A stretch of 64,000 nt of DNA from Athripsodes cinereus (taxonomy: Eukaryota > Arthropoda > Insecta > Trichoptera > Leptoceridae). Shown here piece after piece: positions 7,583-64,000 of the stretch (position 1 is the first letter of the stretch; each line of letters opens with the position of its first letter). A program made the position numbers and the translations under genes. The stretch is from assembly GCA_947579605.1 (NCBI GenBank), contig OX388317.1:20665384-20729383 (forward strand), read 5' to 3'. Below the pieces are notes generated by a model, which worked only from the letters and a program-made list of their open reading frames with translations, was not told where the DNA came from and searched no databases.

Positions 7583-7762
7583 TTTTTTTTTTTTTCAAAA
7601 TATATATCTGGGTTTGTAACAAACCCAAATACAACCTTATACACCTTTCACACTAAGCTTAAAGCTTGTGCCGTGAAAGGGGAGTTTGCCGGCACCTGGG
7701 ATTGAACCACGGACCCCTTGTTCTGAAGGCCGAGACTCTACCTCCAGGCTACCGACGAACTC
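7583..7762 (-). mobile_element. SINE family S copy 3
   Basis: This is a full-length reverse copy: a T-run and ATATATATCTGGGTTTGTAA on the left, the B-box complement GATTGAACC near 7699, and GGCTACCGACGAACTC on the right. Compared with copies 2 and 4 it has lost a few bases at AAGCTTAAAGCTTG and carries the GTGCCGTGAAAG variant shared with copy 6, so these two may form a subfamily. Confidence 0.9.
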
Positions 7763-8030
7763 ATATTATTTGAACACTGTTATTATTTCAATGCCTATTA
7801 CTCATCACTCCAGAAATACCTAATTCATTCTATCCCGCAGACATAACGTAATTATGAATCAACAATAAGTGTGGTATTCCTGTATTAATACAAGTACGTA
7901 CTGAAACATTGCAAACCCCCTCGTCTCGTTTGTCCCCGACAAATTGTCCGCAGTTTTCCACACAAAGTAATTTAAAATGCACCTCATCCATGTGGTTCAA
8001 GGTGGGGGGGATATAAAGTTGACGGTAAAA

Positions 8031-12424: not shown

Positions 12425-12490
12425 TTGATTGAGCAGACATTTATTTTGTAAAACTCATATTAATTTATGGAAATAAATGCAAACTTAATT
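12425..12490 (+). repeat. Family-E short repeat
   Basis: TTGATTGAGCAGACATTTAT, TTTGTAAAACTCATATTAA and TTATGGAAATAA match, with changes, the tail of the 15.8-kb foldback and a reverse copy at 58.69-58.78 kb. It may be the 3' terminus of an unidentified retroelement. Confidence 0.45.
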
Positions 12491-12620
12491 CGACAATGAT
12501 TTTGTTAATCGAAATCAGGTTACTGTACCTATTTTCAATGTAATTCGTCACTTTTTGTGTATCCATATTAAATTAATTAATTAAAAAACTTATACTTTTT
12601 TATACACACTTATATTTTAA

Positions 12621-12673
12621 TTTTTGTAGACAATATTGTTTCGTCTCTTAATGAGACATTATCAATACTAAAC
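12621..12673 (-). ncRNA. Hammerhead-like RNA motif, left arm of F3
   Basis: This is the inverted twin of the motif at 12878-12930. Its UUGAUAAU core, GUCUC/GAGAC helix II, GAAA and ACAAUAUUGU helix III are identical, because the arms of the foldback match. Confidence 0.4.
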
Positions 12674-12877
12674 TATGCAAAACAAATAATATTCAATTAA
12701 GGTGAAAATACAGTGGTAGTGGTAGAGGGGGGAACAATGGAGGTATGAGGGTATGAAACAAGTGGGAATATTCTGAGAATTGGGGATGCATTGGGTATTG
12801 TTGTTTTATTGACTAAATTATTTACACTATTAATATTTTTATGAATTTCCAATGTTTCTCTTAGTAATTTAGTATTG

Positions 12878-12930
12878 TTTAGTATTGATAATGTCTCATT
12901 AAGAGACGAAACAATATTGTCTACAAAAAT
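12878..12930 (+). ncRNA. Hammerhead-like RNA motif, right arm of F3
   Basis: Read as RNA: helix I 5' strand UUUAGUA, core UUGAUAAU, helix II GUCUC-AUUAA-GAGAC, GAAA, self-complementary helix III ACAAUAUUGU, C at the cleavage position, then UACAAAA closing helix I (GUA/UAC, an A-A mismatch, UUU/AAA). Textbook hammerhead nucleotides U4 G5 A6 A9, G12 A13 A14, A15.1-U16.1 and a non-G at 17 are met. C3-G8 is replaced by U3-A8 and one extra U precedes helix II. It was folded by eye only; cleavage is unproven. Confidence 0.45.
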
Positions 12931-12995
12931 TAAAATATAAGTGTGTATAAAAAAGTATAAGTTTTTTAATTAATTAATTTACTGTACCTATTTTG

Positions 12996-15792: not shown

Positions 15793-16058
15793 AATATTTC
15801 AATGATTGATTGAGTCGACGTTGATTTTGTAAAACTCCATTATATTGATATAATGAAAACAAAATTGTTTTTGGTTTTACTACGATTTATTTGTTAAATA
15901 AGTTACCAGGTTTCGACCTATGAGGTCATTGTCAAACTCTTTTGTTTTGTTGAGTTTGACAATGACCTCATAGGTAAAAACCTGGTAACTTATTCAACAA
16001 ATAAATCGTAGTAAAACCAAAAACAATTTTGTTTTCATTATATCAATATTTCAATGAT
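15793..16058. mobile_element. Foldback element F1 with 14-bp TSD, copy 1
   Basis: AATATTTCAATGAT at 15793-15806 and 16045-16058 brackets a 238-bp insertion. Inside are a 35-bp left tail (TGATTGAGTCGACG onward, family-E-like) and a palindrome with arms 15842-15939 and 15952-16048 around a 12-bp TTTTGTTTTGTT loop. There is no coding sequence. The left-arm tip contains a hammerhead-like motif on the minus strand. In the right arm GGTCGAAACC has become GGTAAAAACC, so that copy of the motif is broken. Confidence 0.75.
15896..15940 (-). ncRNA. Hammerhead-like RNA motif in F1, copy 1
   Basis: Minus-strand RNA: helix I strand GAGU, core UUGACAAU, helix II GACCU-CAU-AGGUC, GAAA, helix III ACC-U-GGU, A at the cleavage position, then ACUU pairing back to GAGU. 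Core differences from the textbook are U3-A8 for C3-G8 and one extra U before helix II. Helix III is too short to close alone; short self-complementary helix III is known in hammerheads that work as dimers. Confidence 0.45.
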
Positions 16059-18497: not shown

Positions 18498-18897
18498 ATA
18501 TTATGTGACATGTTACATCTGTGCACAAAACAAAGTGCATTTGTGGACGTGAGACATTTGGTTTTTATTAAATATTTCAATGATTGATTGAGTCGACGTT
18601 GATTTTGTAAAACTCCATTATATTGATATAATGAAAACAAAATTGTTTTTGGTTTTACTACGATTTATTTGTTAAATAAGTTACCAGGTTTCGACCTATG
18701 AGGTCATTGTCAAACTCTTTTGTTTTGTTGAGTTTGACAATGACCTCATAGGTAAAAACCTGGTAACTTATTCAACAAATAAATCGTAGTAAAACCAAAA
18801 ACAATTTTGTTTTCATTATATCAATATTTCAATGATATTACGATTGTTGGTAATATTTAGTCAGGACATAGATGGCGTTGCAACCGATCTTGTACAT
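18498..18897 (+). repeat. 400-bp block, copy 2
   Basis: This is an exact partner of 15720-16119. The flanks differ on both sides, so the duplicated unit is sharply bounded. It carries a second copy of foldback F1 and its 14-bp flanking repeats. Confidence 0.9.
18674..18718 (-). ncRNA. Hammerhead-like RNA motif in F1, copy 2
   Basis: It is identical in sequence to the motif at 15896-15940, having been duplicated with the 400-bp block. Confidence 0.45.
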
Positions 18898-21275: not shown

Positions 21276-22094
21276 TCTTAAAATAAAAAATAAATATCTT
21301 CTTATTAGAAAGGTATCTTAATGTAGTGTGTGCACTGTATACAAAGTTAGATAACTGTGTATGACATATTTTTAATGTCTTATATTATTTTACATTAATA
21401 TTTTCATATATAAAATTAATCACGTACTTACTGCAGTTTGTATAGTCGCTGTATATATAATGTTGAACGACAAAAATATCTTTTGAAAATTGTCCAAGAT
21501 TTTCCTCTCAATATTCCAAGCGCGCAGTGCAAAACTTCAACACAAAGATTTTCATAATAAATACATAGTTGAAGTATGAATCTTATGTTAGCAGTATCGT
21601 CATAGAAAATATGCCAAGAAAACCGATTATCTACGTGGCATCATCACCATCTTTGTGTATTCCATTATTCCATACATCCCAGTAGAGAAACATGATCTTG
21701 TTTCTACAATCAGCTATTTCAATGCAATCTTGTCGCTATAATAAATTACGGTTCGGGCGAATGAAATTAAATAACATTTTTTTTTCACTTTGTTTTTTTT
21801 TTTAAATGAGAGGACGTTTTTCGTCTTATAAAGAAGGACATTGTCAATCAATTGACAATTGTTAATTTCATAATGGAATTGAATGTTTCAGGCTTCTTTT
21901 TCGTCTTTTTCATCGAACCCTCAATGTTGAGGATGGTGACAATCATTCATATAGATGTAAATAAGTGCCTTTCAGCGACACAATACAATTAATTGGTCAT
22001 ATTTTCACGGAATGGGAAAACAAAAATAAGTAGATACTCGCAAAAAAAAACATAATATTAATCAACTACACTTCATCCGCATAACCAACAGATC
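21276..22094. other. AT-rich spacer with a foldback-related word
   Basis: At 21812-21868 the minus strand carries UUGACAAUGUCC followed by AAGACGAAA, a diverged version of the hammerhead-like core block seen at 52.1 kb. Otherwise nothing was recognised. Confidence 0.4.
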
Positions 22095-26221: not shown

Positions 26222-26401
26222 ATTTTTTTTAAAAAGATATATCTGGGTTTTGTTATAAACCCAAATATAACCTTATACACCTTTCACAGTAAGCTACTAA
26301 AAGCTTGTGTCGTGAAAGGGGAGTTTGCCGGCACCTGGGATCAAACCCCGGACCCCTTGTTCATGAGGCCGAGACTCTACCTCCAGGCTACCGACGAACT
26401 C
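26222..26401 (-). mobile_element. SINE family S copy 4
   Basis: This full-length reverse copy has a T-run/AAAAAGATATATCTGGGTTT tail complement on the left and CCAGGCTACCGACGAACTC on the right. The B-box complement is GATCAAACCCCGG. It is one of the best-preserved copies. Confidence 0.9.
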
Positions 26402-26662
26402 GAAATTATAAAATGATATATTGGAAGAGCTCAGTGTGACTATTGACGATGAAATATAAAAAAAAATTAATAAATTATAGTTTAAATGTAAGATGTTTAA
26501 TGATTATTGATAATTGAAATAAATAAGATGTGTGACGCGTACGGAACATTTGATAATATATATTATCAATTTTGATTTGACCTGAAGTCGTCCAAAATGA
26601 CTGTATTTGTGCGTTTAGCAACAGATTATTCTGCTTTATTATTATCTCATATCTCATTTATT

Positions 26663-26908
26663 AAACAAAACAATTTTTAATTAAAGAATTAGTTAATTAT
26701 GTACTACAACCACTTTAATTTTTTAAAAACACTACCGGTTTCAACGCTCAGATGCGTCATTGACGAGTGTCATACTAAAACTGAAACCGGTAGTGTTTTT
26801 AAAAAATTAAAGTGGTTGTAGTACATAATTAACTAATTCTTTAATTAAAAAATATGTTTCGTGATTACCACATAGTTAGTGCCAACAAAATCAAACAAAC
26901 AAAACAAT
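26663..26908. mobile_element. Foldback element F2 with 12-bp TSD
   Basis: AAACAAAACAAT at 26663-26674 and 26897-26908 brackets an insertion of 222 bp. The palindrome arms are 26674-26743 and 26782-26851 with a 38-bp spacer. A 45-bp one-sided tail (ATGTTTCGTGATTACCACAT onward) lies on the right. This is the mirror orientation of F1 and F3. There is no coding frame. Confidence 0.7.
26724..26772 (-). ncRNA. Hammerhead-like RNA motif in F2
   Basis: Minus-strand RNA: helix I GACAC, core UCGUCAAU, helix II GACGC-AUCUGA-GCGUU, GAAA, helix III ACCGGU, A at the cleavage position, then GUGUU pairing with GACAC. Helices I, II and III all form although none shares sequence with those of F3. Two core positions differ from the other loci (U4 to C, A6 to U), so this copy is probably inactive. 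Confidence 0.35.
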
Positions 26909-31171: not shown

Positions 31172-32191
31172 TTGTATTGGCTTTTAAAACAGGATAAGCC
31201 AATTCGTAAGCATCGAGACGCGAGCCCAAAGAAGCATTTGCGCTGCAGTAGATGTCACAGCTGTTTCCATTTCACTTGTGTGGAAACCACAGAAACAAAC
31301 TATAAAAAGATGTCATCGGTTGCTAAATCATCATGGAAGTGTAAAACATGTAAAGGCCAGGATCCAAGATCCAATACTTCAACCACGTCCACTCCAACGA
31401 CTGTTGTTCCAATAGACAATCAAGAGGCACTCTCTATGACTCCTGTTGGGCAGGCTCAGCCCTGCTTTACACTGTCTTCTGATATTGCTGACAGATTAGT
31501 ACGAATTGAGGCGGAAGTGTCAAAGACCAATGAATCTCTGCAGCTGATATGGGAGGAACTCTTCTCTCAGCGAAAACAGATAGAGGTCTGTGTTTCTTCC
31601 GTTAACGATCTGGATCAGAGGGTGTCAGTATTGGAGAAGAAGTTAAAGGATAATGATGCGAGTGTAGCCGAAATCAATACCCTTAAGGCATCTGTTCAGT
31701 CTCTGCAGATAGCAAATGAAGAAAAGGAGCAATTTTTGCGTGCTAATAATGTGGAGATAAAGAATATTCCATTCAAAAATACTGAAAATCTATCATCCAT
31801 TGTTGGCCAGGTTGCTGAGAAAATAGGTTTCTCTTTGAAGCAGGATGATATTGATCTGATGACAAGGGTAGCGACAAGAGCGCAGGGGCCTAAGCCTATT
31901 ATTATAAAGTTTGCTCGGCGATCACGTAAAGAGGAATTTTTATCATTGGCCAGAAAACTGCGAAAACTTACCACAGCGGATCTTGGATGGAGAGGTAGTG
32001 AAACTACTATATACGTAAACGAACATCTAACGACTGAGCGAAAAGTTTTGCTATCTAAAACAAAGACAAGAGCGAAGGATAAAGGATATAAGTTTGTATG
32101 GATTAACAACTATAAGATCCTTGTAAGACAAAATGAAACTAGCCAGTCTTTTTGGGTGCGAAGCGAGAACGATTTATCCAAGATAACATAA
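31172..32191 (+). CDS. LINE ORF1 protein (PHD-like, coiled coil, nucleic-acid-binding), N-terminally truncated
   Basis: This is the ORF1 protein of the element, which in related LINEs binds its own RNA. Seen in sequence: CSRCHSCFHFTC then WKCKTC near residues 24-60, the latter half of a C4HC3 PHD finger whose first Cys pair is missing. A Thr/Ser-rich linker follows. A probable coiled coil spans about residues 105-180 (IEAEVSKTNESLQLIWEELF, LDQRVSVLEKKLK). The C-terminal block has NNVEIKNIPF, KPIIIKFARRSRKEEFL and YVNEHLTTERKVLL, ending YKFVWINNYKILVRQ. That C-terminal pattern is typical of insect LINE ORF1 proteins. No convincing ATG precedes the finger, which fits 5' truncation. The frame is intact for 339 codons. 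Confidence 0.8.
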   Translation: MYWLLKQDKPIRKHRDASPKKHLRCSRCHSCFHFTCVETTETNYKKMSSVAKSSWKCKTCKGQDPRSNTSTTSTPTTVVPIDNQEALSMTPVGQAQPCFTLSSDIADRLVRIEAEVSKTNESLQLIWEELFSQRKQIEVCVSSVNDLDQRVSVLEKKLKDNDASVAEINTLKASVQSLQIANEEKEQFLRANNVEIKNIPFKNTENLSSIVGQVAEKIGFSLKQDDIDLMTRVATRAQGPKPIIIKFARRSRKEEFLSLARKLRKLTTADLGWRGSETTIYVNEHLTTERKVLLSKTKTRAKDKGYKFVWINNYKILVRQNETSQSFWVRSENDLSKIT

Positions 32192-32861
32192 TAATGCTTA
32201 CTTATTTTGGTCGCTTGCTGTTATTTATATATATTTGTAATTTACTGAAGGAGCTTATATTGATGGAATATTTTAATGCATTGATAATGAATGTAGTGCA
32301 TACTTGTTGTACTGAAGTTGGACGTTGGTTGGTGTTAAAGTTGAAGCTGATTCAAATCTTAATTTTTAGAGTTTTAAATGGTGGTCATCCTCTCCTTAAC
32401 CCCCCTAACCCTCCCTCCCTAAAACACTTCCTTAATCTGCGCTTGTTCCATTGTCAGAGGTATATTTGGTGTGTTGGTGTGGTTTGTTTGTTTTGTGTGG
32501 AGTTTGTTTTGACCATAACTGTGATTCTGATGTACTTGATGCTATTCTCATTTTGTATGATGCGAGAATGGTTTGGGGTTGTTTGCTGTCTGAGAATTGA
32601 TTTTGTTCTGAATTTGTGCTCTAATTCTCTGATTTTTACCATCATGATGAATGTAACTTTGTGCTGTTTATTGGTTTCTGGTTGTGTCGAGTCGCGCAAA
32701 GCTTTATTGGTCCTCATCATGAATAATAAATATGTGTGTTTTTGTGTGTCGTTTTACTATGTACACTCTATGAAAGCGGATGTCTTACTATATTTGATAT
32801 ATGTTTGTATGTGTGCTTATAACTGTCTTTGTCGCTGTTTAGCAACTTTGGGATCTCTTGA
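32192..32861 (+). other. Inter-ORF region of the LINE
   Basis: This G/T-rich stretch carries a 257-codon open frame (32152-32925) overlapping the end of ORF1. Its product is rich in Cys, Val and Leu with no domain, so I treat it as a chance frame. Jockey-type ORFs usually lie much closer together, so this 670-bp gap is unusual. Confidence 0.5.
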
Positions 32862-35774
32862 TGGTTTGAGTTTGCCAATTATATTTGTGTTATTAACAGT
32901 AGAACTGGCGCGAATGATAAATTAGCTATATATCATCAGAATGTGCGTGGATTACGCACAAAAACGGATGAACTATTTCAGGGTGCTTTGTCCAGTGATT
33001 ACGATATTATTACGTTAACTGAAACTTGGTTGGACTCGGATATAAAAGATGCTGAATTTCTCGATGGTAGGTATGTGGTGCATCGTAGAGATAGAGATTA
33101 TTCATGTTTAAATATGACTCTTGGTGGTGGCGTCCTAATAGCCCTGCGCTCACGGTTTGACGTTGTTCGCCGTAACGAGTGGTGTACTGACTCTGCGTCA
33201 ACTGTGGAAGACCTCTGGATTACCATGAGGCTTAATCATAACACATACATACATGTTTGTTGTGTATACATACCTAACAGGTCGAATCATATTATGAATA
33301 TAGAAAGTTTTATGGAGAAGGTAAGTAAACTAATGGGTGAATTCCCGAATGATCAGTTTCTTATCGTTGGAGACTTTAACTTGCCGAAGATTACATGGAC
33401 GAAGCTCCCCAATCAGAATAAGTGTCAACCGTCCAATCTGAATGACCCAGTTACGTCTCATTTTGTAGATTGCTTGAATGTAAATTTGTTAAATCAATTC
33501 AACTTTGTACAGAACTCATCCTCTAATATACTTGACTTGGTTATATCAAATATTGAAGATATATTTCTAGCGCCAGCAGATGACCCATTTGTTCGAGAGG
33601 ATTCCTTCCATAAATCGCTTATGTTTGATGTAAGGTGTAATAATTTGGATTCTCTGGTACCAGTGACAAGGACAGTGAAGCTCTTCCACAAGGGAGATTA
33701 CGAGAGAATAAATGAAGCATTGATGGACATTGTCTGGGGTGAACGTTTTCAAGGTAAGAGTTGCGAAGAATGTGTCCAAATCCTTTACTCTATACTTGAA
33801 GTTTTGATAGATGAACATATCCCTAAAAGAACCAAGTATGCAGATTCGTGTTCATATCCTCCGTGGTATACGATTCCACTCATAAAGTTAACAAGGGAAA
33901 AATTTAGAGTCTTCAGAAGGTATAAGAGACACGGAAGCCATAATGATTACATTATATTTTCAACTCTGAGGTCAAGGCATAAAACACTTGCGAAAGAATG
34001 TTACAATAATTATCTGAATAACATGAAAAATACTCTTAAGTCTGATCCCAACTCATTGTGGAGCTTCGTTAAATCTAAGAACAAGCAAAACTGCATTCCT
34101 AAGACAATGTTTCTAGATGGAGTTGTGGCTAGCGGTGGGCATGACATATCGAATTTATTCTCTGTTCGTTTCTATGACTGCTTTAATCATGATAGTCAGC
34201 CAACATCGTATATCTCTCCAGCTGATCAAGGTGTTAGAACTCTGAATGATGTTACTGTAAATGCGGATTTGGTATTGAAATATTTATTATCTTTGAACAC
34301 AAAACAATCACCGGGAGTCGATGGTATCCACCCATTGTTTGTGTATAATTGCCGTGAGAACCTCTCTATCCCTTTATCCATTATATTTTGCAGATCATTG
34401 AACGAGGGCTGTTTTCCCAATATGTGGAAAAGCGCACTGATAACACCAATACATAAATCGGGTTCGCAAGATGACGTGACCAACTATAGACCAATATCCA
34501 AGCTTTGTACGTTTGCAAAAATTTTTGAACACCTGGTGCAGGATCAACTATATGCGTCAATAAAGCCATATATCAATGAATCACAGCATGGTTTTGTGCA
34601 GGGTAGGTCTACTTCTACAAACTTAATTCTTTTTACAAGTTATGTTGTGGATGGAATGGAGCGGGGTGGTCAGGTGGATGCCGTATACACGGACTATAGC
34701 AAAGCCTTTGACAAGGTAAACCACTCTATTTTGTTACAGAAGCTTGGGAGCCTGGGAATATGTGGTGATTTGTTTAGATGGTTTTCTTCTTATATTTCAA
34801 ATCGAAGACAGGCAGTTGTTATTGGGGGTCACAGATCAGATTGGAGGGACGTTCCTTCTGGAGTGCCACAGGGCTCTATTTTGGGTCCTACTTTATTTAA
34901 CGTTTATATAAATGACATCAATTCATGTTTTGGTTTTTGTAAATTCATTCTTTATGCAGATGACATGAAGATTTACTCACAGATTCAGTCGATCAATGAC
35001 TGTTTCAGATTTCAGCGTGACCTGGATCGATTGACAGCTTATTGCAAGGCAAATTGTTTATATCTAAATGTTGATAAATGTGTATTGATCCGATTCACTA
35101 GAGGGAAAAATCCTATTAAATTTAATTATGGGCTTGATAACTCTGAACTAAAACTGGTATCTGAGGTAAGAGATCTGGGTGTGACGATTGATGACAAAAT
35201 GACATTTCGTAACCATTATGAGAAAATTATTTCCAAAGCCTCACACATGCTTGGTTTTATCTCCAGGGTGACTAGGCCTCTGAGGAGTTCCGAAGTTGTA
35301 AAGACTCTGTATGTATCATATGTAAGGAGTATTCTTGAATATTGTTCGTCTGTGTGGAGTCCACACTTTGGGCTTCACATAGATAGGATTGAGAGGGTTC
35401 AGCATAGAACTCTTAGAATGCTTAACTTTCTGAGTTTTAAGAGGTTTGACAACTATGGGGAAGCTGAGAGATACCACGGCCTGCAGTCTCTTTCTGGCAG
35501 ACGTAAAATGGCGGATCAGGTATTGTTATACAAAATTATTCATTCGAAAACGGACTGCCCGGATCTGAATGAGTTAGTGCACTACCATGTTCCTAGAACT
35601 GCTGCCCGACATCCTCGGACATTTTACATTACTGCATTTAATACGAGTTGTGCCAGGAATAGTTTTCTTCGCCGTTCCTGTGAGAGCTACAATTGCACAT
35701 TTCAGGGGGTTGATATTTTCGGCTCCACTCTTTCACAGTTTAAGTCTGGTATTAAGTCGGCGGTGATGAGTTGA
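32862..35774 (+). CDS. LINE ORF2: AP-like endonuclease plus reverse transcriptase
   Basis: The enzyme nicks target DNA and copies the element RNA at the nick. The endonuclease runs from YHQNVRGLRTK (about 32925) through LTETWLD (about 33020), GDFNLP (about 33369) and SFHKSL (about 33605). The RT runs from SPGVDGIHP through YRPISKL, QHGF, TDYSKAFDKVNH (about 34689), SGVPQGSILGPTLFN (about 34860) and the catalytic YADD (34953-34964). The C-terminal part has RVTRPLRS..ILEYCSSVWSP and ERVQHRTLRML. The open frame begins after a stop at 32859. The first ATG is at 33114, inside the endonuclease, so the true start is non-AUG, lost, or reached by reinitiation after ORF1. All main catalytic motifs look intact. 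The jockey/CR1 group is assigned by motif memory. Confidence 0.85.
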   Translation, partial: WFEFANYICVINSRTGANDKLAIYHQNVRGLRTKTDELFQGALSSDYDIITLTETWLDSDIKDAEFLDGRYVVHRRDRDYSCLNMTLGGGVLIALRSRFDVVRRNEWCTDSASTVEDLWITMRLNHNTYIHVCCVYIPNRSNHIMNIESFMEKVSKLMGEFPNDQFLIVGDFNLPKITWTKLPNQNKCQPSNLNDPVTSHFVDCLNVNLLNQFNFVQNSSSNILDLVISNIEDIFLAPADDPFVREDSFHKSLMFDVRCNNLDSLVPVTRTVKLFHKGDYERINEALMDIVWGERFQGKSCEECVQILYSILEVLIDEHIPKRTKYADSCSYPPWYTIPLIKLTREKFRVFRRYKRHGSHNDYIIFSTLRSRHKTLAKECYNNYLNNMKNTLKSDPNSLWSFVKSKNKQNCIPKTMFLDGVVASGGHDISNLFSVRFYDCFNHDSQPTSYISPADQGVRTLNDVTVNADLVLKYLLSLNTKQSPGVDGIHPLFVYNCRENLSIPLSIIFCRSLNEGCFPNMWKSALITPIHKSGSQDDVTNYRPISKLCTFAKIFEHLVQDQLYASIKPYINESQHGFVQGRSTSTNLILFTSYVVDGMERGGQVDAVYTDYSKAFDKVNHSILLQKLGSLGICGDLFRWFSSYISNRRQAVVIGGHRSDWRDVPSGVPQGSILGPTLFNVYINDINSCFGFCKFILYADDMKIYSQIQSINDCFRFQRDLDRLTAYCKANCLYLNVDKCVLIRFTRGKNPIKFNYGLDNSELKLVSEVRDLGVTIDDKMTFRNHYEKIISKASHMLGFISRVTRPLRSSEVVKTLYVSYVRSILEYCSSVWSPHFGLHIDRIERVQHRTLRMLNFLSFKRFDNYGEAERYHGLQSLSGRRKMADQVLLYKIIHSKTDCPDLNELVHYHVPRTAARHPRTFYITAFNTSCARNSFLRRSCESYNCTFQGVDIFGSTLSQFKSGIKSAVMS

Positions 35775-41400: not shown

Positions 41401-43673
41401 ACGTATCTAGACGTATCTGGCGGTCTAAAACACATAAAGATCAGAAAGCTAAGAGGATAAAAGTCGAAAAGTTGAATGAGATAGAGTGTAGGGAAAAGTA
41501 TGAAAGAGAAACATGTATGAAATTTGATGCAAATGAAGGTAATGATTTGAATGTAGATGAGAGATGGAGTGTGATGAAACAAGTGCTAGTAGACTGTGCA
41601 AAAGATATCTGTGGAGAAACTGTGATTGGACGGAAAAAAGGCGATGCATGGTGGGATGATGATGTTAAAGACGCAGTTATGAAAAAGAAGAATGCATGGA
41701 AGGGTGTGCTAGCCTCACGTAATCTAGATCAAGGAAAAATTGAGAGTGCTAGAGAAGTATACAAGGAATGTAAGAAAGCTGTAAAGGAACTGATAAAGGA
41801 AAAAAAGAAATTAGTAGATGAAGCAGAGTGTAAGAAATTGTCTGATAATGTGAAAGAAAATATGAAAATATTTTGGAAAGAAGTTAAGCGTAAAAGAAGC
41901 AACAATGAGGTGAATAGTATGAATGCGATTAGAAATAAAGAGGGATGTATGTTGATGAATGGTGTTGACGTTGTGAATAGATGGAAAGAATATTTTGAGG
42001 AGCTGTTTGAAAGTGGAGGTGAATGTCCAAGCCAGAACAGTGAAAGGGAAAACGCGAATGAAACAAGGGATGAAGAAATAACTATGGATGAGATTAAGAA
42101 TGCAATGAAGAAAGCAAAGAATGGCAAAGCGGTTGGATATGATATGATCTCTACGGAATTCATCAGTTTGAGTGGGCTGAGGACTCTCGAATGGTGTCAT
42201 GCACTCTTTAACCAGTGTTGGAGGGAAGGTTGCACGCCAGAAGACTGGCGAAAAGCTGTGATATGCCCTCTATACAAAGGAAAGGGGTCAAGACTAGAAT
42301 GCGGGAGTTATCGGGCTATCAGTCTGCTGAGCTCGGTGGGGAAGCTGTATGCAAGAATATTGATTGAAAGAGTTCGAAAAGTAACTGAGACGAATGTATG
42401 GGATGTGCAAGGTGCCTTTCAGAGTGGTAGAGGATGTGTGGACCAGATTTTTTCCCTGCGAATGGTGACAGAGAAGCTCCTGGAGAAACACCAGAAGCTT
42501 TTCTGCGCGTTTGTTGATCTTGAAAAGGCTTATGATAGAGTAGATCGTGAGAAAATGTGGCAAGTGCTATCAATGTGTGGGGTGGGTAGTCAGCTAATTC
42601 GCGCCATTGCGTCCCTATATACAGGAAGTTCTGCATGTGTTAGAGTGAACAATAACCTGTCGGAATGGTTCACACTGACAAAAGGAGTGAAACAAGGGTG
42701 CGTTATGTCGCCATGGCTTTTTAACCTATACATTGATCATTGTATTCGTCCATTGAAAGAAATGAATGTAGGTGTTGATATGAATGGGATGAATGTAAGA
42801 GCGTTAATGTTTGCCGATGATTTGGTATTGATGGCTGAAAGTGAAAGTGATCTACAGCGAATGATGACGTGTGTGTATGAAAATTGTGCGATTAATGGAT
42901 TGAGAATGAATGCAAAAAAGACAAAAATTATGGTGTTTGAAAGAGGAAGTGAGAGAACAGTATGCCAGGTGATGATTGACAACGAAGTGTTAGAGCAAGT
43001 TGACGAATGTGTGTACTTAGGTAGCTTGTTCACGAGAGATGGGAAGTGTGAAAGCGATATTGAAAGGAGAAAAGTTGCTGGCAATAAGGTAAATGGTGCA
43101 ATCCGACCAATAATTGCAAATAGAAACATATCCACCACAGCTAAAAGGTTGGTGCACTCTGCTATCTTAGTGCCAACACTTATGTATGCAAGTGAGACGT
43201 GGACATGGTTAAAGAAGGATGAACGTGGCATAAATGCAGTAGAAATGAGATCGTTGAGAAGGATGTGTGGTAAAAGTCTGAGAGATCGTGTGCGTAACAT
43301 TGATATACGAAAGGAATGTGGAATGAAAGTTGGTGTAATAACAAGGATGAATGTAAATAAGTTAAGATGGTTTGGGCACGTGGAAAGAATGAATGAGGAC
43401 AGAATGACTAAGAAGATATATTTGTCTGAGAGGAATGGTGCTCGGAGACGTGGACGTCCGAGGATTAAATGGCAAGATCATTTAAATCAAATCCTACAGG
43501 ACGGTCACGTGTTGAGCACATTGAAAAGGAGAGCATGCATGAGGAATTGTATGACAGTGACGGAAGCGAAAGATGTATGCAAAGATAGAAGGAAGTGGCG
43601 CTCGATCCTTTCTGCCTACCCCGCGAGGGAAGCGGCGTGATGGTATGTATGTATGTATGTGTACGTATCTAGA
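41401..43673 (+). mobile_element. RTE-type LINE, 5' truncated, with 11-bp TSD
   Basis: ACGTATCTAGA at 41401-41411 and 43663-43673 flanks the element 41412-43662. Coding begins inside the RT precursor region, so the endonuclease half was never copied, as is usual in target-primed insertion. The 3' end GGCGTGATGGTATGTATG followed by TATG units is the simple-repeat end expected of RTE elements. The right flank runs straight into a SINE tail complement, so the target lay at the edge of SINE copy 5. Confidence 0.85.
41472..43640 (+). CDS. RTE-type reverse transcriptase, endonuclease missing
   Basis: The intact 722-codon frame is open upstream to about 41412 (KTHKDQKAKRIKVEKLNEIE). Motifs in order: GKAVGYDMI (about 42130), YRAISLLSSVGKLYARIL (about 42310), QGAFQSGRGCVDQI, FVDLEKAYDRVDR (about 42510), KGVKQGCVMSPWLFNLYID (about 42681) and catalytic FADD (42810-42821). 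Then CVYLGSLFTRDGK, ETWTW and the RTE-typical C-terminus LRWFGHVERM and RRGRPRIKWQDHL. It stops just before the 3' repeat. RTE proteins usually carry an N-terminal AP endonuclease; it is absent by truncation, so the copy cannot retrotranspose alone. There is no internal stop or frameshift, which implies recent insertion. Confidence 0.85.
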   Translation: MNEIECREKYERETCMKFDANEGNDLNVDERWSVMKQVLVDCAKDICGETVIGRKKGDAWWDDDVKDAVMKKKNAWKGVLASRNLDQGKIESAREVYKECKKAVKELIKEKKKLVDEAECKKLSDNVKENMKIFWKEVKRKRSNNEVNSMNAIRNKEGCMLMNGVDVVNRWKEYFEELFESGGECPSQNSERENANETRDEEITMDEIKNAMKKAKNGKAVGYDMISTEFISLSGLRTLEWCHALFNQCWREGCTPEDWRKAVICPLYKGKGSRLECGSYRAISLLSSVGKLYARILIERVRKVTETNVWDVQGAFQSGRGCVDQIFSLRMVTEKLLEKHQKLFCAFVDLEKAYDRVDREKMWQVLSMCGVGSQLIRAIASLYTGSSACVRVNNNLSEWFTLTKGVKQGCVMSPWLFNLYIDHCIRPLKEMNVGVDMNGMNVRALMFADDLVLMAESESDLQRMMTCVYENCAINGLRMNAKKTKIMVFERGSERTVCQVMIDNEVLEQVDECVYLGSLFTRDGKCESDIERRKVAGNKVNGAIRPIIANRNISTTAKRLVHSAILVPTLMYASETWTWLKKDERGINAVEMRSLRRMCGKSLRDRVRNIDIRKECGMKVGVITRMNVNKLRWFGHVERMNEDRMTKKIYLSERNGARRRGRPRIKWQDHLNQILQDGHVLSTLKRRACMRNCMTVTEAKDVCKDRRKWRSILSAYPAREAA

Positions 43674-43823
43674 TTTTTGTTATAAACCCAAATACAACCT
43701 TATACACCTTTCGCAGTAGGCTTAAAGCTTGTGTCGTGAAAACGAAGTTTGGCTGCACCTGGGATCGAACCGCGAACCTCATGTGCTTGAGGCCGAGACT
43801 ACCTCCAGGTTACCGACGAACTC
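43674..43823 (-). mobile_element. SINE family S copy 5, separated from its tail by the RTE insertion
   Basis: ATAAACCCAAATACAACCTT onward to TACCGACGAACTC is a diverged reverse copy (GGATCGAACCGCGAACC at the B-box side). Its T-run tail complement seems to lie on the far side of the RTE element at about 41387-41400 (AAATTTTTTATAG). Confidence 0.8.
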
Positions 43824-43837
43824 GAATATAGGTATAC

Positions 43838-47220: not shown

Positions 47221-48441
47221 TCAACCTACAAAGATACCAAAGTTGGAGGCAACACTCCTTCTGAACACCGTCAGTGAATGACAAAAGACATCCGCACCAT
47301 CCACGCAATGTGAGCATAAAACATTATATAATCTACACATTCTGCTGATTGGACTATTTTGACTGACATTGTTACTATGTCTGTCCATTAAGAAAGTTCT
47401 TAGGTTACGTAGGCGGGGATTTGCTGCATAAAAATTCAATGAACTGACCGACACAGTATCTACATTACCATTGATCATTTTATGAAGCATAGTGAGATCC
47501 GCAAGTATTCTCCTGTCCCTCAGTTTATCCATCTTAAAAAAGGAAAGACGATCCTCGTAACTTTTCAAAAATCTGCCCTGTCCAGCCCTATATGACAAAC
47601 CTCTCGTGAAGCGTCTCTGGACCCTCTCTAATGCATCAATATGCACCTCGTACATTGGGGACCATATCAGCGAGTTGTATTCCAGAGAGCTACGAACCAA
47701 GGAATAATACAAAATCTGGAAACTGTTTGTTCTTTTAAATTTATGCGAAATACGACTTATAAATCCCAGTTTTCTATTTGCGCGCATGATGATATCATTA
47801 TAATGACCACGAAAACTAAGTTTTGAGTCTAATGTGACACCCAAATCACGTACTTCGTTCACTTTAGGTAAAGTTTCGCCCCCCAAGACATAGTTAAATT
47901 CTATAGGTTTTCTTTTATTTGTGAAGGTTATACTGTGGCATTTTTTAATATTTAGTGACATCTCGTTCAGTTCACACCATTCTGTCAACCTCCAAAGATC
48001 ATGTTGCAATTTCAGGCAGTCATTAATTGATACTATAGGGAGAAATATTTTAAGGTCATCAGCGTATAACAGTGTATGACAATCCAAAGCAACGGGCAGG
48101 TCATTTATGAACATAAGAAATAGCAAAGGACCCAAATGCGATCCCTGGGGAACCCCCGAAGAGATCAGAGATGGTGGTGAATCAAATCCGTCGACAACTA
48201 CATACTGTGATCTATAATGTAAGTAAGATTCAATCCATCTTAATAAACCACCATGTATTCCACAAGCTTTGAGTTTGGACAAAAGCATTCGATGATTGAC
48301 CTTGTCGAATGCTTTACTGAAGTCTGTGTAAATAGCATCGACTTGTATTTTACGATCAAAGGAGCGGGAAATGCAGGTGACGAATTCCAGAAGATTTGTG
48401 TTAGTTGATTTCCTCGGTACAAACCCATGCTGAGAAACACA
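47221..48441 (-). pseudogene. LINE ORF2 C-terminal half (reverse transcriptase)
   Basis: The long open frame from the insertion junction to the stop carries SQHGFVPRKSTNTNLLEFV, TDFSKAFDKVNHRMLL, SSGVPQGSHLGPLLFLMFIN, catalytic YADD in HTLLYADDLKIF, VRDLGVTLDSKLSF, RSSLEYNSLIWSP and ERVQRRFTRGL. These are the RT palm, thumb and C-terminal motifs. It is intact over about 400 codons but cut from its N-terminal half by an insertion. Confidence 0.8.
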
Positions 48442-48442
48442 A

Positions 48443-48448
<6 letters not shown>

Positions 48449-48476
<28 letters not shown>

Positions 48477-48593
48477 CTTTATTGTACAAAATATTTAAAC
48501 AAAAAGAATGAGATTAGGTACAACATGGTATATACAAATATTTTGCACAATGGGCGAGTTTATCGCAGGGACGCGATATCTTCCAACTAACCC
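48449..48593 (-). mobile_element. 145-bp family-C insertion inside LINE ORF2, with TSD
   Basis: AATATAA lies at 48442-48448 and 48594-48600 (7-bp TSD). On the minus strand the insert begins GGGTTAGTTGGAAGATATCG, holds GATAAACTCGCCCATTGTGC, and ends AATAAAGTTTATTATTATTA with further ATT units. If the insert and one TSD are ignored, the host frame continues without a break across the junction, so the boundaries are exact. Confidence 0.85.
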
Positions 48594-51320: not shown

Positions 51321-52044
51321 ATTATGAGGTTCAATTTTAGGTTGAAAAAGGACCTTTCTCTGTCTGTCTGTGAGTGTTTATCTCTGTCGCTTAGTCAGAT
51401 CTTAGGCATATGCACTGACCGACTCAAGAATTAACGTGTAACTCCCGTTTAAAAGTTAGAATTTTTGTAAGTTTGGTCGATATATGTTTTTTTGCGTCTT
51501 TTCACCCCTGATTCCGTCAAGTACCTACTACCTACTTCATAGTACCTCATTTTTCCTCTTCTTCTTCATCGTTTTTCTTTTCTCACTTTCTCTCTCTATC
51601 TAGCTTTTCTTGTCTGACATTTATTAATAGGTATATGTTGGATAATAGTAAAAAGTCTTAAGAGGGACTTTATTATTATTATTTCTGTTTTTATTGTACT
51701 CGGTAAAAACTCATTTTTTTCTTTTTTCTCATCCATAAAATGTCGTATTTAAGTAGTATAATAATAAGAAGATGTATCCAGGTTAATAAAATGTAACATT
51801 CAGGTGATTTTATTTTTCTTTGTTTTTTTTATTTCTTCTTATTTCAATTTTCTTCTCGGTTAATTTTGAGAATAATCCAGCTTTATTAATTCAAAAATAT
51901 TTTGTTTTTAACTTAGACACATCAATCTGCCTCATTCTCAAAGTTTTAATATTATCTATCCACTGTGTGTCTATTCTCTCACACGGCATCTTTTGTAAGG
52001 GCGACAAATTGGACAGAACGATATATCAACCCAACCTTTCAATC
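51321..52044. other. AT-rich spacer, nothing recognised
   Basis: T-rich; an open frame at 51820-52065 has no domain beyond hydrophobic runs. Confidence 0.4.
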
Positions 52045-52190
52045 TATTCACTGTGTCAGTGTTAAGGTAGTAGAATTCCATAAGGAAGTTAAAAAACAAA
52101 TGTTGGTTTATTGTCGAGAGAGACGTCTTTCGTCAGTCAAAGATTGACAATGTCCTTACAAGACGAAAGATGTCTCTCTCGACAATAGAA
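52045..52190. mobile_element. Foldback element F4 (CGAGAGAGACGTC family)
   Basis: Arms 52111-52134 (TTGTCGAGAGAGACGTCTTT, CGTC) and 52162-52185 are inverted copies with one mismatch. The left flank (CACTGTGTCAGTG then TAGTAGAATTCCATAA) is repeated at 59136-59175, so the unit is larger than the palindrome. No coding frame. Confidence 0.65.
52137..52185 (+). ncRNA. Hammerhead-like RNA motif in F4
   Basis: RNA read: helix I AGA, core UUGACAAU, helix II built on GUC..GAC (GUCCU-UAC-AAGAC, one C-A mismatch), GAAA, helix III AGA-UG-UCU, C at the cleavage position, then UCU pairing with AGA. The left arm carries the palindromic form AGACGUCU of helix III. The core is the same U3-A8 variant with the same extra U as in F1 and F3. 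Confidence 0.38.
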
Positions 52191-52261
52191 CATAAAGTAG
52201 AGGACGACAATTGTTTTTACATTTCGCCAACTTTTTAAGCTTCTATCGAATGTAATACTCA

Positions 52262-52313: not shown

Positions 52314-53551
52314 CATTATAATGAAAAGGGCGGAAAGTAAAATCAACGAAACACTTTCAGAAGATCAATTTGGATTCCGCAAAGAGACAGGTACAAGAGA
52401 TGCAATTCTGAGTCTAAGACTTGTTCTTGAAAAGAGAATAACAGTAAATAGAAACACGTATGTAGCATTCATCGACCTAGAAAAAGCATTCGATAAAGTA
52501 GAATGGGAACAACTTTTTAAGACTCTAAACCAGATAGGAATGAGCTATAAGGACAGAAGAGCAATCTGGAGCCTATACAAGAATGAAATGGCTGTAATTA
52601 AAAGCGGAGAGAGCTGCGCAGAAGCGAGGGTAGAACAAGGTGTGAGACAGGGATGCTCAATGTCGCCAGCACTCTTTAACTGCTATATACAGCGAGCTAT
52701 TGATGAACTCAGAGAAGAAATGAAGAACTGGACAGGAGTAAAAATAAATGGGAAAAAAGTCGACATGATTAGATATGCAGACGACATAGCACTGCTCGCA
52801 GACTCCGAGATGGAGCTGAACGAAGCCTTAGGGAAAATGGAAAGTATACTGTTGTCAAAGTACAACATGAAAATAAATAAAGATAAAACAAAATGTATGG
52901 TCGTTGGAAGGGAGGAAGCGACTGCGAACATTGCCATAAATGGAGTGAGCATCAAACAAGTAAGAGAATTTGTGTACTTGGGCAGCAGAATAAACCAGGA
53001 CGGACGCTCCAAATCAGAAATTGTGAGCAGAATAAACCAGGCACGAATTGCCTTTAACAAAAAATCCAAAATATTAGAATCCCCCAATATTGATCTAAGC
53101 GTGAGGAAGAATCTCACTAAAGCCTTTGTGTGGAGCATTTTGTTATATGGGTGCGAGACGTGGACCATCAGCAAGAGGGAAAGCGGACGGTTAGCGGCAT
53201 TTGAAATGTGGTGCTATAGACGCATGCTGAAGATTCATTGGTCGGAACACGTCGAAAACGAAGAAGTGTTAACCAGGGTTGGCGAAAAAAGGCAACTCCT
53301 CAAAAGAATCTGCCAACAACGAGCTAATTGGATTGGCCACAACATCAGGCACCCAGGACTGCTCATCGCAATCGCAGAGGGCAGGACCGAAGGCACAAAT
53401 GGCAGAGGTCGACCGAGAGACGCCTATATGGACCAACTGAAGAGGGACATGAGCTGTGGCTCATATATGGAGTTGAAGAGACTAGCTGAGAATAGGGAGG
53501 AGTGGAGAAATAAGTCAAAACTCGTTGCAGACCAATCCATAACTCATTATA
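52314..53551 (+). mobile_element. RTE-like LINE fragment with 7-bp TSD
   Basis: CATTATA at 52314-52320 and 53545-53551 brackets a 1224-bp insert that starts inside the RT domain. Short TSD and 5' truncation fit target-primed reverse transcription. The TSD is short enough that chance cannot be excluded. Confidence 0.65.
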
Positions 53552-53616
53552 TATATCGAATGATGCTTCTTTCCTTACTAGGCTTATTTTCACACTTTGC
53601 TTCCAAAATTAATTGA
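52321..53616 (+). CDS. LINE reverse transcriptase fragment (YADD)
   Basis: The frame is open from the junction: NETLSEDQFGFRKETGTRDA, FIDLEKAFDKVEWEQL (motif A), EQGVRQGCSMSPALFNCYIQ (motif B) and catalytic RYADDIALLAD (YADD at 52774-52785). Then EFVYLGSRINQDG, LLYGCETWTISK and the C-terminus WIGHNIRHPGLL and GRGRPRDAYMDQLKRDM. This is the RTE-like type often annotated in insects as endonuclease-reverse transcriptase. The N-terminal endonuclease and RT fingers are absent. Residues after about 408 come from flanking DNA, since the insert seems to end at 53544. There is no internal stop, so the insertion is fairly recent. Confidence 0.8.
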   Translation: MKRAESKINETLSEDQFGFRKETGTRDAILSLRLVLEKRITVNRNTYVAFIDLEKAFDKVEWEQLFKTLNQIGMSYKDRRAIWSLYKNEMAVIKSGESCAEARVEQGVRQGCSMSPALFNCYIQRAIDELREEMKNWTGVKINGKKVDMIRYADDIALLADSEMELNEALGKMESILLSKYNMKINKDKTKCMVVGREEATANIAINGVSIKQVREFVYLGSRINQDGRSKSEIVSRINQARIAFNKKSKILESPNIDLSVRKNLTKAFVWSILLYGCETWTISKRESGRLAAFEMWCYRRMLKIHWSEHVENEEVLTRVGEKRQLLKRICQQRANWIGHNIRHPGLLIAIAEGRTEGTNGRGRPRDAYMDQLKRDMSCGSYMELKRLAENREEWRNKSKLVADQSITHYIYRMMLLSLLGLFSHFASKIN

Positions 53617-58826: not shown

Positions 58827-59002
58827 TTTTTTTTTAAAAAAGATATATCTGGGTTTTGTTATAAACTCAAATACAACCTTATTACCTTTCACACTAAGCT
58901 AAAAGCTTGTGCCGTGAAAGGGGAGTTTGCCAGCACCTGGGATCAAACCACGGACCCCTTGTTCTGAAGGCGAGACTCTATCTCCAGGCTACCGACGAAC
59001 CC
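58827..59002 (-). mobile_element. SINE family S copy 6
   Basis: Full-length reverse copy from the T-run and AAAGATATATCTGGGTTTTG to GGCTACCGACGAACCC, with the B-box complement GGATCAAACCACGG. It shares the GTGCCGTGAAAG variant with copy 3. Confidence 0.9.
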
Positions 59003-59129
59003 GAAAAAAATTAAAAAACTGACCATAAAACATTATTTGTATGTCTACTTACCAAAAATATATGGTAGAAAATCTAGAAGTAGTTAATATTAGATTTAAT
59101 TTTACTTAGGTGGATACTGGGCTATTCGT

Positions 59130-59622
59130 TCACTCTATTCACTGTGTCAGTGTTTAGGTAGTAGAATTCCATAATGAAATAAATAAAACAAATGTTTTAT
59201 TGTACTATTCGATGTAGGTGCTATTCGATGTACTATTCGATTATTCGATGTACTATACAATGTTTTGATTTTTCATGACTTTTCTAGTTGTTCTGTTTTG
59301 ACTAATTTTATGATTGTTTTTGATTTCCAATAATTGTATTTGTTCTTCGCCAGTTGTTTTTCTTTTCTAACTGTGTTGTAAATGAGAATTATGTTTTGTT
59401 TTTGTTTTTATATTTAACATGTAAAAGGCTCACGCCATGGATGTATGTATAAATAAAAATAAATAAAATAAATAAGTATTCACGAGAGAGACATCTTTCG
59501 TCTTGTTCATTCAATTGACAATGTCCTAACGATTGTCCTGACAATGTATGTACTACTAACAAGACGAAAGACGTCACTCTCGTATATAAATCAAATAGCA
59601 GAATAAAACATTTGTTTTATTT
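59130..59622 (+). mobile_element. Composite: CGAGAGAGACGTC foldback interrupted by a family-D end
   Basis: The left part repeats the 52.05-kb flank (CACTGTGTCAGTGTTTAGGT, TAGTAGAATTCCATAA, AACAAATGTTTTATTG). A segment with ATTCGATGTACTATTCGAT units follows. A family-D 3' end (TTTAACATGTAAAAGGCTCA, CGCC, then AAATAAATAAAA to about 59475) comes next. Then foldback arms 59483-59505 and 59559-59582 (CGAGAGAGACATCTTTCGTC / GACGAAAGACGTC). The right edge AATAAAACATTTGTTTTATT mirrors the left AAAACAAATGTTTTATT. Confidence 0.55.
59510..59585 (+). ncRNA. Decayed hammerhead-like motif in the composite foldback
   Basis: UUGACAAUGUCC and AAGACGAAAGACGUC are kept but separated by an enlarged helix II region of about 40 nt. 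Helix I is not convincing. It is listed for its homology to the 52.14-kb motif. Confidence 0.2.
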
Positions 59623-60019
59623 ATTTAGGATTTTTGAGTTATTGAGACACCCGAGGTCAATCTTCATTGACGTAAGGGTTAACCCCACATAAGCTGGTGT
59701 TTGTGTATGTGAGTATTATTTTACACTCGATGTTGTATAGCACTTGTATTGCAATAATTAGTGAGTCAGAGGGAATCACTACTACTTCTACTACTACTGC
59801 TTGTCTATCATTCATTGTTGTCGTTGTTGACCTGCTGTCCATCACCCCGCCTCTAGCTGTCATCCGCACTCGTACCACTACCTTCTCTTACTCTCCTGTC
59901 AGACATCAACCCCGTCAACTCGTCAACGTTTGTTATTATTTTCATCATCAAATATCTCTATTATGATAATATTTTATTAAAAATATAATGTGTTTAAATT
60001 TTTAATTATCGACCGACGG
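59623..60019. other. AT-rich spacer, nothing recognised
   Basis: A TAC/ACT-rich patch at about 59780-59800 only. Confidence 0.35.
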
Positions 60020-62541: not shown

Positions 62542-62683
62542 AGAAGTAATATGTCTACTTCAAACCTACTTACAAAAGATGCCATGATGATAGCTTCTTC
62601 TTCACGTCTCTGACCAGGCCACCCTGACGTTGATTTGCCAGGCCATTTGGAAAAATACTTCGCTCTCCTTCCCTCATCACCAG

Positions 62684-63055
62684 ACTTGCTGCGACTTTAC
62701 CCGCTAAGTGTAAGCACTTCAGCCGTCATCTGACGACATTAACCAATGGATAATGATGTGCATCTCACTCTATCAAACTTGCTGCGACTTTACCCGCTAA
62801 GTGTAAGCACTTCAGCCGTCATCTGACGACATTAACCAATGGATAATGATGTGCATCTCACTCTATCAAACTTGCTGCGACTTTACCCGCTAAGTGTAAG
62901 CACTTCAGCCGTCATCTGACGACATTAACCAATGGATAATGATGTGCATCTCACTCTATCAAACTTGCTGCGACTTTACCCGCTAAGTGTAAGCACTTCA
63001 GCCGTCATCTGACGACATTAACCAATGGATAATGATGTGCATCTCACTCTATCAA
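62684..63055 (+). repeat. 93-bp tandem array, four units
   Basis: Units start at 62684, 62777, 62870 and 62963. Each begins ACTTGCTGCGACTTTACCCG and ends CACTCTATCAA. The units appear identical. All six frames of the unit contain stops, so it is not a coding repeat. It is markedly less AT-rich than its surroundings. Confidence 0.95.
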
Positions 63056-63140
63056 GACGTAAATTTTAAGTATCACAATATGGTTCAAAAACGATTTAAG
63101 TTGTGCCTTATATCTAATTTATCTTTTTTTCTTTTCACAG

Positions 63141-63184
63141 ATTTATGAAAATACGACACCTTCATTGCAAAGCAGTTTTAAAAG
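63141..63184 (+). CDS. Candidate 44-nt internal exon
   Basis: The strong acceptor TCTTTTTTTCTTTTCACAG and the donor AG|GTATGT bracket ATTTATGAAAATACGACACC through AGTTTTAAAAG. Two phases are open: IYENTTPSLQSSFK, or FMKIRHLHCKAVLK after one carried base. It cannot follow the 30.86-kb exon directly, because TG plus A would make a stop. No protein family can be judged from 14 residues. Confidence 0.3.
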
Positions 63185-63273
63185 GTATGTATTTGTAGTA
63201 CATATTTGTGCTAACATTATACTAAACTACAAGACACTCGTATAATTATGATCCAAAGTAATACCAATATATT

Positions 63274-63441
63274 TTCGTTATATCAAATATTTGAATCACT
63301 TTAAAGCCTTTTGTTTTCATTATATCAAATATTTGAATCACTTTAAAGCCTTTTGTTTTCGTTATATCAAATATTTGAATCACTTTAAAGCCTTTTGTTT
63401 TCGTTGTATCAAATATTTGAATCACTTTAAAGCCTATTTTC
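63274..63441 (+). repeat. 42-bp tandem array, four units
   Basis: TATCAAATATTTGAATCACT starts at 63281, 63323, 63365 and 63407 with one or two base changes between units. The unit is a multiple of three, which keeps a repetitive frame (NHFKAFCFRYIKYL) open by arithmetic alone; I do not call a gene. Confidence 0.95.
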
Positions 63442-64000
63442 GTAAGAAAATAAGCTCGAAGATTTTTACTATTGATCTTCTTCTAGGGGGTTTGACAATA
63501 TAAATTCTTTTACTATCTTCTTCAAAACTAAGGCACGCTTGAATAATAACAAGAACCTTCATAATTGGTTGAAAAATGTGCCGTTTTGAAGAATAACATC
63601 GCAAGGGCCTATTTTAGAACTACAATACCTTCCGAACAAAAGGGTCTTTGACCTTGCATTGTTTACAAGTTTTTTGTTCCACAACAAAGGTCCAACAATT
63701 TTTTAACAGCATCTGTGTTAGAAGACCTAAATAATGTTTGCCTCCCGTTGTTTTGTCTCAAATGCAGAGCTTGCCACGTGCCACGCCAAGTAGTGCCTTG
63801 AACACTATGTATGCGGTTTTGAATTCCACCCTTTCTTTTACTTTAAACCAGTGAATATTATCTCTCAGAGGAGGAGCTATCGTCAAAATTTGTTGGATTC
63901 TTTAGTGAAAACAAAAAAACCTAGTAAAGATAAAAAAAACCTTTTACGTTCTTGTATTAAAATATGAATGTTTATCTTTGTTGTACGAAATTCAACAATA
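63442..64000. other. AT-rich end of window, nothing recognised
   Basis: No coding or repeat feature was recognised up to the window edge. Confidence 0.4.

Follow-up and report, generated by a model that had tools for sequence, protein, structure and literature searches.

Hammerhead-like motifs in the terminal repeats of Penelope-like elements of Athripsodes cinereus

Main finding

The window, that is, the whole stretch of 64 kb of DNA that was analysed, contains four loci with a hammerhead-like RNA motif. Judged from sequence, all four are terminal repeats (pLTRs) of Penelope-like elements (PLEs). Very probably the motif is the minimal type I hammerhead of these elements, carried on foldbacks of inverted pLTRs, with a core mostly characterised by a U3-A8 pair and an extra U, and would cut as a dimer after H17.

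Motif copies in the window

Motif copies were searched for with a strict script that demanded helix II, a loose eight-letter core, self-complementarity in helix III and no fewer than 3 bp in helix I. Five copies were found in the 64 kb, against a mean of 0.125 and a maximum of 2 in first-order Markov shuffles (n = 40). With a core lacking the extra U, the same script gave one match (60332) against a shuffled mean of 0.325, which was considered to be chance. The copy at 52.14 kb (core from 52144, plus strand) was rejected by the strict script due to a C.A mismatch after 3 bp of helix II and was recovered by looser scans. The looser census of the window returned 11 matches (shuffled mean 1.5, maximum 6, n = 60), eight of which are the hammerhead-like motif, including two decayed ones (21847, minus strand; 59538, plus strand), and the other three are taken as background. 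The features are as follows.

12490..12532, plus strand: decayed motif TCGACAAT...CGAAATCAGGT, adjoining the F01 element
12530..12981: foldback assigned to inverted head-to-head pLTRs of a Penelope-like element (family F01); tailed on the left (+95 past H17), short on the right (+54 by blastn, with the arms complementary as far as about 12981)
12623..12671, minus strand: second full F01 motif copy, left arm, core from 12665
12700..12867, minus strand: C-terminal 56 residues (780-835) of the PLE RT/GIY-YIG ORF (tblastn, 100% identical to P0001)
12879..12927, plus strand: hammerhead-like motif, family F01, right arm of the foldback, core UUGAUAAU from 12885
15805..16049: F03 foldback, tailed on the left (+99), short on the right (+62)
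15898..15941, minus strand: hammerhead-like motif, family F03, UUGACAAU core
15956..15990, plus strand: decayed F03 copy on the opposite arm, AAAA in place of GAAA
18583..18827: duplicate F03 foldback
18676..18719, minus strand: F03 motif of the duplicate foldback
21806..21850, minus strand: decayed F06-like motif, core from 21847
26665..26899: F10 foldback, short on the left (+67), tailed on the right (+104)
26727..26772, minus strand: hammerhead-like motif, family F10, UCGUCAAU core with C4, U6 and the pair U3-A8
52036..52226: F06 foldback, ends about +50 and about +98 past H17, about 78% identity to the L072 pLTR
52141..52179, plus strand: hammerhead-like motif, family F06, core from 52144
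59129..59626: F07-related foldback with a decayed motif, core-like string at 59538 (plus strand)

The order of the motif and the helix sequences quoted in the initial annotation proved correct; this also holds for U3-A8, for the additional U in front of helix II and for UCGUCAAU at 26.7 kb. The plus-strand motif that it placed at 12.88 kb is present, but the element there has two full copies, one on each arm.

Identity of the elements

The genome searched comprises 716 Mb in 160 contigs. Used as a query, the foldback at 12.6-13.0 kb gave at least 103 matches (40 of 1,017 candidates scored). In L055, a motif locus fetched from contig C1, two direct motif copies flank an ORF of 835 residues with the domains RVT_1 (E 8e-13) and GIY-YIG (E 1.7e-5). 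A reverse transcriptase and a GIY-YIG domain in one ORF are the make-up of endonuclease-bearing (EN+) PLEs, and in L055 the GIY-YIG domain is C-terminal to the RT, as in that group. Searching the same genome with the protein gave at least 56 matches, 37 to 100% identical (54 of 3,232 candidates scored). Named proteins related to it come from Parnassius, Diabrotica, Diaphorina and Rotaria, among others, the nearest to the window PLE being from the butterfly Parnassius mnemosyne (38%), which makes an insect host probable; no related proteins were found in viral contigs.

The other loci lead to PLEs as well. The 26.7-kb foldback (F10) matches the region upstream of a PLE at C22 (L066, whose ORF is interrupted by stops), the 52.1-kb foldback (F06) matches the upstream region of a PLE at C8 (L072), and full copies of the 15.9-kb family (F03) hold a PLE C-terminus. 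Because of these protein, upstream-region and C-terminus matches (F01, F10, F06 and F03), all four loci are assigned to PLE pLTRs. The motif was initially described as shared by several unrelated foldback elements, a view that the protein and pLTR similarities contradict, as all four are pLTRs of PLE families. The link to Penelope elements that was drawn in the same place holds, the motif lying in PLE pLTRs upstream of PLE ORFs.

Among 17 motif families in the genome, the motif was found upstream of a PLE ORF in 11 (F01, F02, F07, F08, F10, F11, F12 and F14-F17). F03 has the C-terminal PLE piece and F06 is linked to PLEs through its similarity to F07, while F04, F05, F09 and F13 gave no PLE protein match within the examined loci. 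The layout is that of PLEs, with pLTR-ORF-pLTR or tandem copies, an inverted pLTR and an optional tail of 30-40 bp. It is not that of metazoan non-LTR retrozymes (tandem repeats of about 300 bp with a hammerhead and no ORF), as the motif precedes PLE ORFs.

Position of the motif relative to the ORF

In 20 regions beside PLE ORFs, the sense motif stood before the ORF in 12 and behind it in one (L062), three had an antisense copy only (L061, L068 and L075), and four had no motif (L065, L069, L070 and L074; three of these contain N). The predicted cut, after H17, lies 52-79 nt 5' of the ORF ATG in 12 PLE loci of 10 families. L064 was omitted from this range because its ORF start is triplicated in a row; its cut falls 58 nt before the first ORF start, and 404 nt separate it from the last, with which the ORF opens. 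As an observation in its own right, the start of this F11 PLE ORF is repeated three times, 173 bp apart, behind the motif. Head-to-tail arrangements, with a PLE C-terminus in the same orientation ahead of the motif, were seen in L055, L059, L060, L063, L067 and L073 (four families). In the five loci with an identified PLE-frame stop, the core starts 31-67 nt downstream of the stop codon (L055 31, L060 52, L063 67, L067 52, L073 46). From these positions we place the motif in the pLTR directly before the PLE ORF and, in tandems, between one stop codon and the next start.

A close parallel among the systems compared is the Poseidon element PAc of Anolis, likewise an RT/GIY-YIG PLE with the motif at the pLTR-ORF junction, as described in part of PMC11167929. 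According to the same text, its ORF starts inside the ribozyme, which is cut 26 bp after the start codon, whereas here the predicted cut precedes the start codon.

Fold and covariation

To assess the fold, the helices of 17 family sequences were spliced without gaps into columns; this was done instead of a covariance model, as MAFFT alignment of whole motifs misregistered the variable loops and the UCGU rows. Base pairing was found in 93.6% of the cells, compared with 56.6% with shuffled partners (none of 500 shuffles as high) and at most 52.1% in slid controls. Cells with two-sided change numbered 70 against 25 in shuffled data, and the covariation score was 0.936 against 0.225 (slid controls at most 0.242). 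Two of the five measures showed no excess, namely pairs with two-sided change (9 against 8.6 shuffled) and further pair types (23 against 21.8). Nine of the 11 pairs scored show two-sided changes, G10.1-C11.1 is one-sided and A15.1-U16.1 invariant; the outermost pair of helix I is formed in 10 of 17 sequences, and over its four pairs helix I is paired in 83.8% of cells. In reading these figures, GAAA and helix II pairing are no independent evidence, as the choice of loci required them, helices I and III were a requirement of the strict window script only, and the close families F01/F02, F03/F04/F05, F06/F07 and F08/F09 are not independent of each other. The earlier suggestion of a structured RNA of hammerhead design is thus borne out, since helices I, II and III covary strongly among the 17 families.

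The three helices follow each other in type I order, with A15.1-U16.1, H17 and GAAA. Positions G12 to A15.1 (demanded), U16.1 and non-G17 are found in 17 of 17 family sequences, as are G5 and A9; GAAA was demanded by the scan and the others partly. In individual genomic strings, helix II of the C3-G8 type formed 119 of 156 pairs, where shuffles averaged 65 and reached 84 at most, in 52 distinct strings copied by hand, with possible omissions, from 100 listed. For the U3-A8 type (the first 50 of 100 listed strings, 32 distinct) it formed 78 of 96 pairs, the shuffled mean being 66 and the maximum 74; the excess is modest, as these strings resemble one another.

Comparison with the Rfam hammerhead families, as the initial annotation proposed, gave no match at E ≤ 10 in the window or in 12 motif loci, those with the canonical core included; Rfam is a detector and not a definition, and the search had no positive control.

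Helix III, dimers and cleavage

Helix III is self-complementary in 16 of 17 families, with 6 to 10 letters and many different sequences. Among its irregular forms are two of length 7 with a central letter, and one G.U in F06. A helix III of 6 or 7 letters is too short for a hairpin and must, if formed, form between two copies. Parts of PMC7761336 and PMC7229834 report or propose that PLE and amphibian hammerheads act as dimers, which agrees with this. The dimer link drawn at the outset holds, helix III self-pairing as a dimeric hammerhead requires. Co-folding of dimers gave no clear hammerhead apart from a suggestive one in F10. The PLE minimal type I hammerheads of Cervera and de la Pena 2014 and Lunse et al. 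2017, as portrayed in the same two sources, have in common with the present motif the pLTR location, the type I order, a very short helix III, proposed dimers and thousands of copies.

Two RNA copies would pair via the self-complementary helix III into an active double hammerhead. This may cut tandem PLE transcripts after H17, leaving a leader of 52-79 nt before the ORF. The PLE protein probably assists the predicted cut, which would not be needed for the RNA to be reverse transcribed.

The genomic copies were examined for traces of the cut in family F03. Among 100 listed of 707 copies of the post-cut sequence, 94 keep the 3' part of the ribozyme directly upstream (within three letters), the other six have an upstream mismatch, one of them through a one-letter shift, and one of the 100 is joined exactly at the predicted cut. 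The H17 letter in these copies is A in 82, T in 14, G in 3 and C in 1. With 94 of 100 keeping the ribozyme and one joined at the cut, the genomic copies do not record cleaved RNA and look as if made from RNA uncut at the predicted site. This agrees with results in part of PMC11167929, where mutants with a dead ribozyme still insert, cleavage needs the protein and no RNA-seq ends lie at the site. Arm starts near the cut do occur, exactly at +1 in L004:1158-1211 (F01) and at about +4 in L008. We considered reading in vivo cleavage from these 5'-truncated copies and rejected it on the single F03 copy in 100 that is joined at the cut.

An alternative is that the motif serves PLE RNA as a conserved structure for protein binding or reverse transcription, which kept the hammerhead fold while cutting was lost in the U3-A8 and C4/U6 families. 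The missing spike of 5' ends at the cut site among the listed F03 copies, the dispensability of the ribozyme for insertion in PMC11167929, as far as its text was available, and the two families without U4 and A6 are all in its favour. However, the hammerhead positions G5, A9, G12, A13, A14, A15.1-U16.1 and non-G17 that recur in every family (with GAAA demanded and others partly) and the strict exchange at the 3-8 pair exceed what a binding hairpin needs, and the available part of PMC3088659 attributes in vitro activity to U3-A8 hammerheads. We therefore regard this alternative as possible but rather unlikely, and prefer the cutting dimer.

Core pair, extra U and C4/U6 core

As the scanner scored positions 3 and 8 separately, mixed pairs were permitted. 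Among the 17 family sequences, the 3-8 pair is U-A in 11, C-G in six and mixed in none. The strict core C3 U4 G5 A6 N7 G8 A9 is found in six families; nine differ from it by U3-A8 only, and two (F10 and F11) also have C4 and U6 and so are without U4 and A6. The RT tree of 12 ORFs requires at least two changes of the C3-G8 label, on well supported branches.

Genome-wide, the pattern TTGAYAATG...CGAAAC matches 3,162 times against 21 for the reversed control. The C3-G8 pattern was counted 7,698 times (reversed-pattern control 57) and the U3-A8 pattern 16,566 times (control 958), while the mixed pairs U3-G8 and C3-A8 gave 822 (control 106) and 1,044 (control 80), respectively. Mixed pairs thus number 1,866 against 24,264 matched ones, with an odds ratio of about 170 after subtraction of controls, which is no probability, as the matches are kin by descent and were counted by pattern, not all being confirmed PLE copies. 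CTGANGAG, the core that lacks the extra U, was found 608 times (control 157), and more than 40 of 100 listed are one string. Given these low counts, the extra U is the rule for these motifs. By pattern counts, U3-A8 replaces C3-G8 in most matches of this genome, with the extra U (A9-U-G10.1) before helix II.

The one CTGANGAG locus checked is a 313-bp tandem repeat. L090 (G000:C3:17192600-17194100, minus strand) holds a 313-bp tandem repeat in 4.5 copies, carrying CTGATGAG...GTCGAAA flanked by TTATGT/ACATAA; an Rfam search of L090 gave no match. By eye, this repeat resembles a type III hammerhead whose helix I is tiny, and it may be a satellite or a retrozyme.

It is very unlikely that the 3-8 switch merely reflects biased mutation of old copies (C to T, G to A), as two single steps should leave many mixed copies, in contrast to the scarcity counted here, and U3-A8 is present in ORF-bearing families. 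The sequence is AT-rich and the listed mixed pairs mostly resemble scattered single copies of both parent types, as such a bias would have it. We thus favour a compensatory exchange, and roughly 23,000 matched-core pattern matches in one genome (controls subtracted) would represent a natural one; the matches of this genome also display the near-universal self-complementary helix III and the steady distance to the ORF.

Neither the core pair nor the extra U is without precedent. The same covariation of C3-G8 to U3-A8 is described in the available part of PMC3088659 for several natural hammerheads, compared with about two thirds of the pattern matches of one genome here. With regard to the C4/U6 families, that text also describes a viroid U4C variant active enough to infect, and a natural A6C variant that is slow and of low activity. 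The printed RNA of Anolis PAc (PMC11167929, in part) has, by reading its letters, the extra U as well, AUG being A9-U-G10.1, while its core is C3-G8 and ours mostly U3-A8. Relative to the PLE minimal type I hammerheads in parts of PMC7761336 and PMC7229834, the motif here is mostly U3-A8, with C4/U6 in two families, a comparison that leaves aside the original core lists. The initial annotation had called the variant core non-standard; this stands in so far as the core is mostly U3-A8 here, but U3-A8 is in PMC3088659 and the extra U can be read in PMC11167929. The motif is a variant of the known PLE hammerhead motif, with the core pair mostly switched from C-G to U-A, and no new class. As far as the searched literature goes, the scale of the switch and the C4/U6 core in two families are unreported, the cores of Cervera 2014 and Lunse 2017 being outside this comparison.

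Foldback architecture

The arms at 12.6, 15.9, 18.7 and 26.7 kb are 95-97% complementary and enclose loops of 12-171 nt. Among neighbours up to 1 kb apart in two listings of 100 places on C1, 22 pairs were inverted as (-,+) and one as (+,-), and seven pairs were direct. The ends of the foldbacks were measured with six reference pLTRs, and both could be measured in 27. In all 27, the copies are head-to-head, with one end lying 28-67 nt past H17 and the second 94-104 nt past it; allowing for duplicates (L039 with L041-L044; L028, L053 and L054; the two window copies), these are about 20 separate cases. The counts cover the families of the six references, with inverted copies of others (e.g. L071, L076 and L078) outside them. 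Excluded were the references L045 (with its copies L026 and L027), L066 and L072, as well as L068 and one-arm loci; L072 consists of two ORF-bearing copies head-to-head, both past +187, and L068 has pieces to +117 and from +116. The 52.1-kb foldback fits the rule of one short and one tailed end (+50 and +98). From their ends and similarities we identify the window foldbacks as head-to-head inverted pLTR insertions of PLEs.

Independent foldback DNA elements of the MITE kind, with terminal inverted repeats mobilised by a transposase and the motif shared by convergence or transposase use, would account for the long inverted arms around short loops, but this candidate was rejected as next to impossible, since the arms are PLE pLTRs in all four window families, pairing is retained amid sequence change, which is unexpected for a DNA-binding site, direct pLTR-ORF-pLTR and tandem copies occur in L055, L059 and L060, and the foldbacks terminate at the two PLE end points, one short and one tailed.

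For bdelloid Penelope elements, the part of PMC3846280 available likewise describes head-to-head inverted pLTRs with palindromic junctions, and an optional 31-bp tail at the 3' end of one inverted pLTR, comparable with the one-tailed foldbacks here. The word hammerhead has 0 occurrences in that text, whereas here the motif is in the pLTRs. The one-tailed rule suggests that the two target strands differ in cells. In vitro, both target strands are cut and extended by PAc, with no strand difference in the start site, according to part of PMC11167929.

A more speculative suggestion, which we consider improbable, is that helix III is a dimerisation signal joining two PLE RNAs per particle, so that both cut target strands would be copied at once from the RNA pair, one strand starting at each of two adjacent sites. 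This would explain the head-to-head foldbacks with one tailed and one short end, and also the retention of the hammerhead fold even though the copied RNAs are uncut. Together, the core exchange, helix III, the ORF spacing, the one-tailed foldbacks and the few copies truncated at the cut site make the question of cutting versus dimerisation directly testable.

Other repeats in the window

A dispersed repeat with CCTCCAGGCTACCGACGAACT is found in the window at 2717-2870, 7613-7766, 26252-26405, 43676-43827 and 58854-59006, and inverted at 1-185; by eye, it resembles a tRNA-derived SINE. Two tandem arrays lie at 62588-63145 (period 93) and 63230-63480 (period 42). ORFs with RT domains are located at 31172-35774, 41472-43640, 47221-48489 and 52321-53616, the first set of which (PHD, endonuclease and RT) looks like a LINE.
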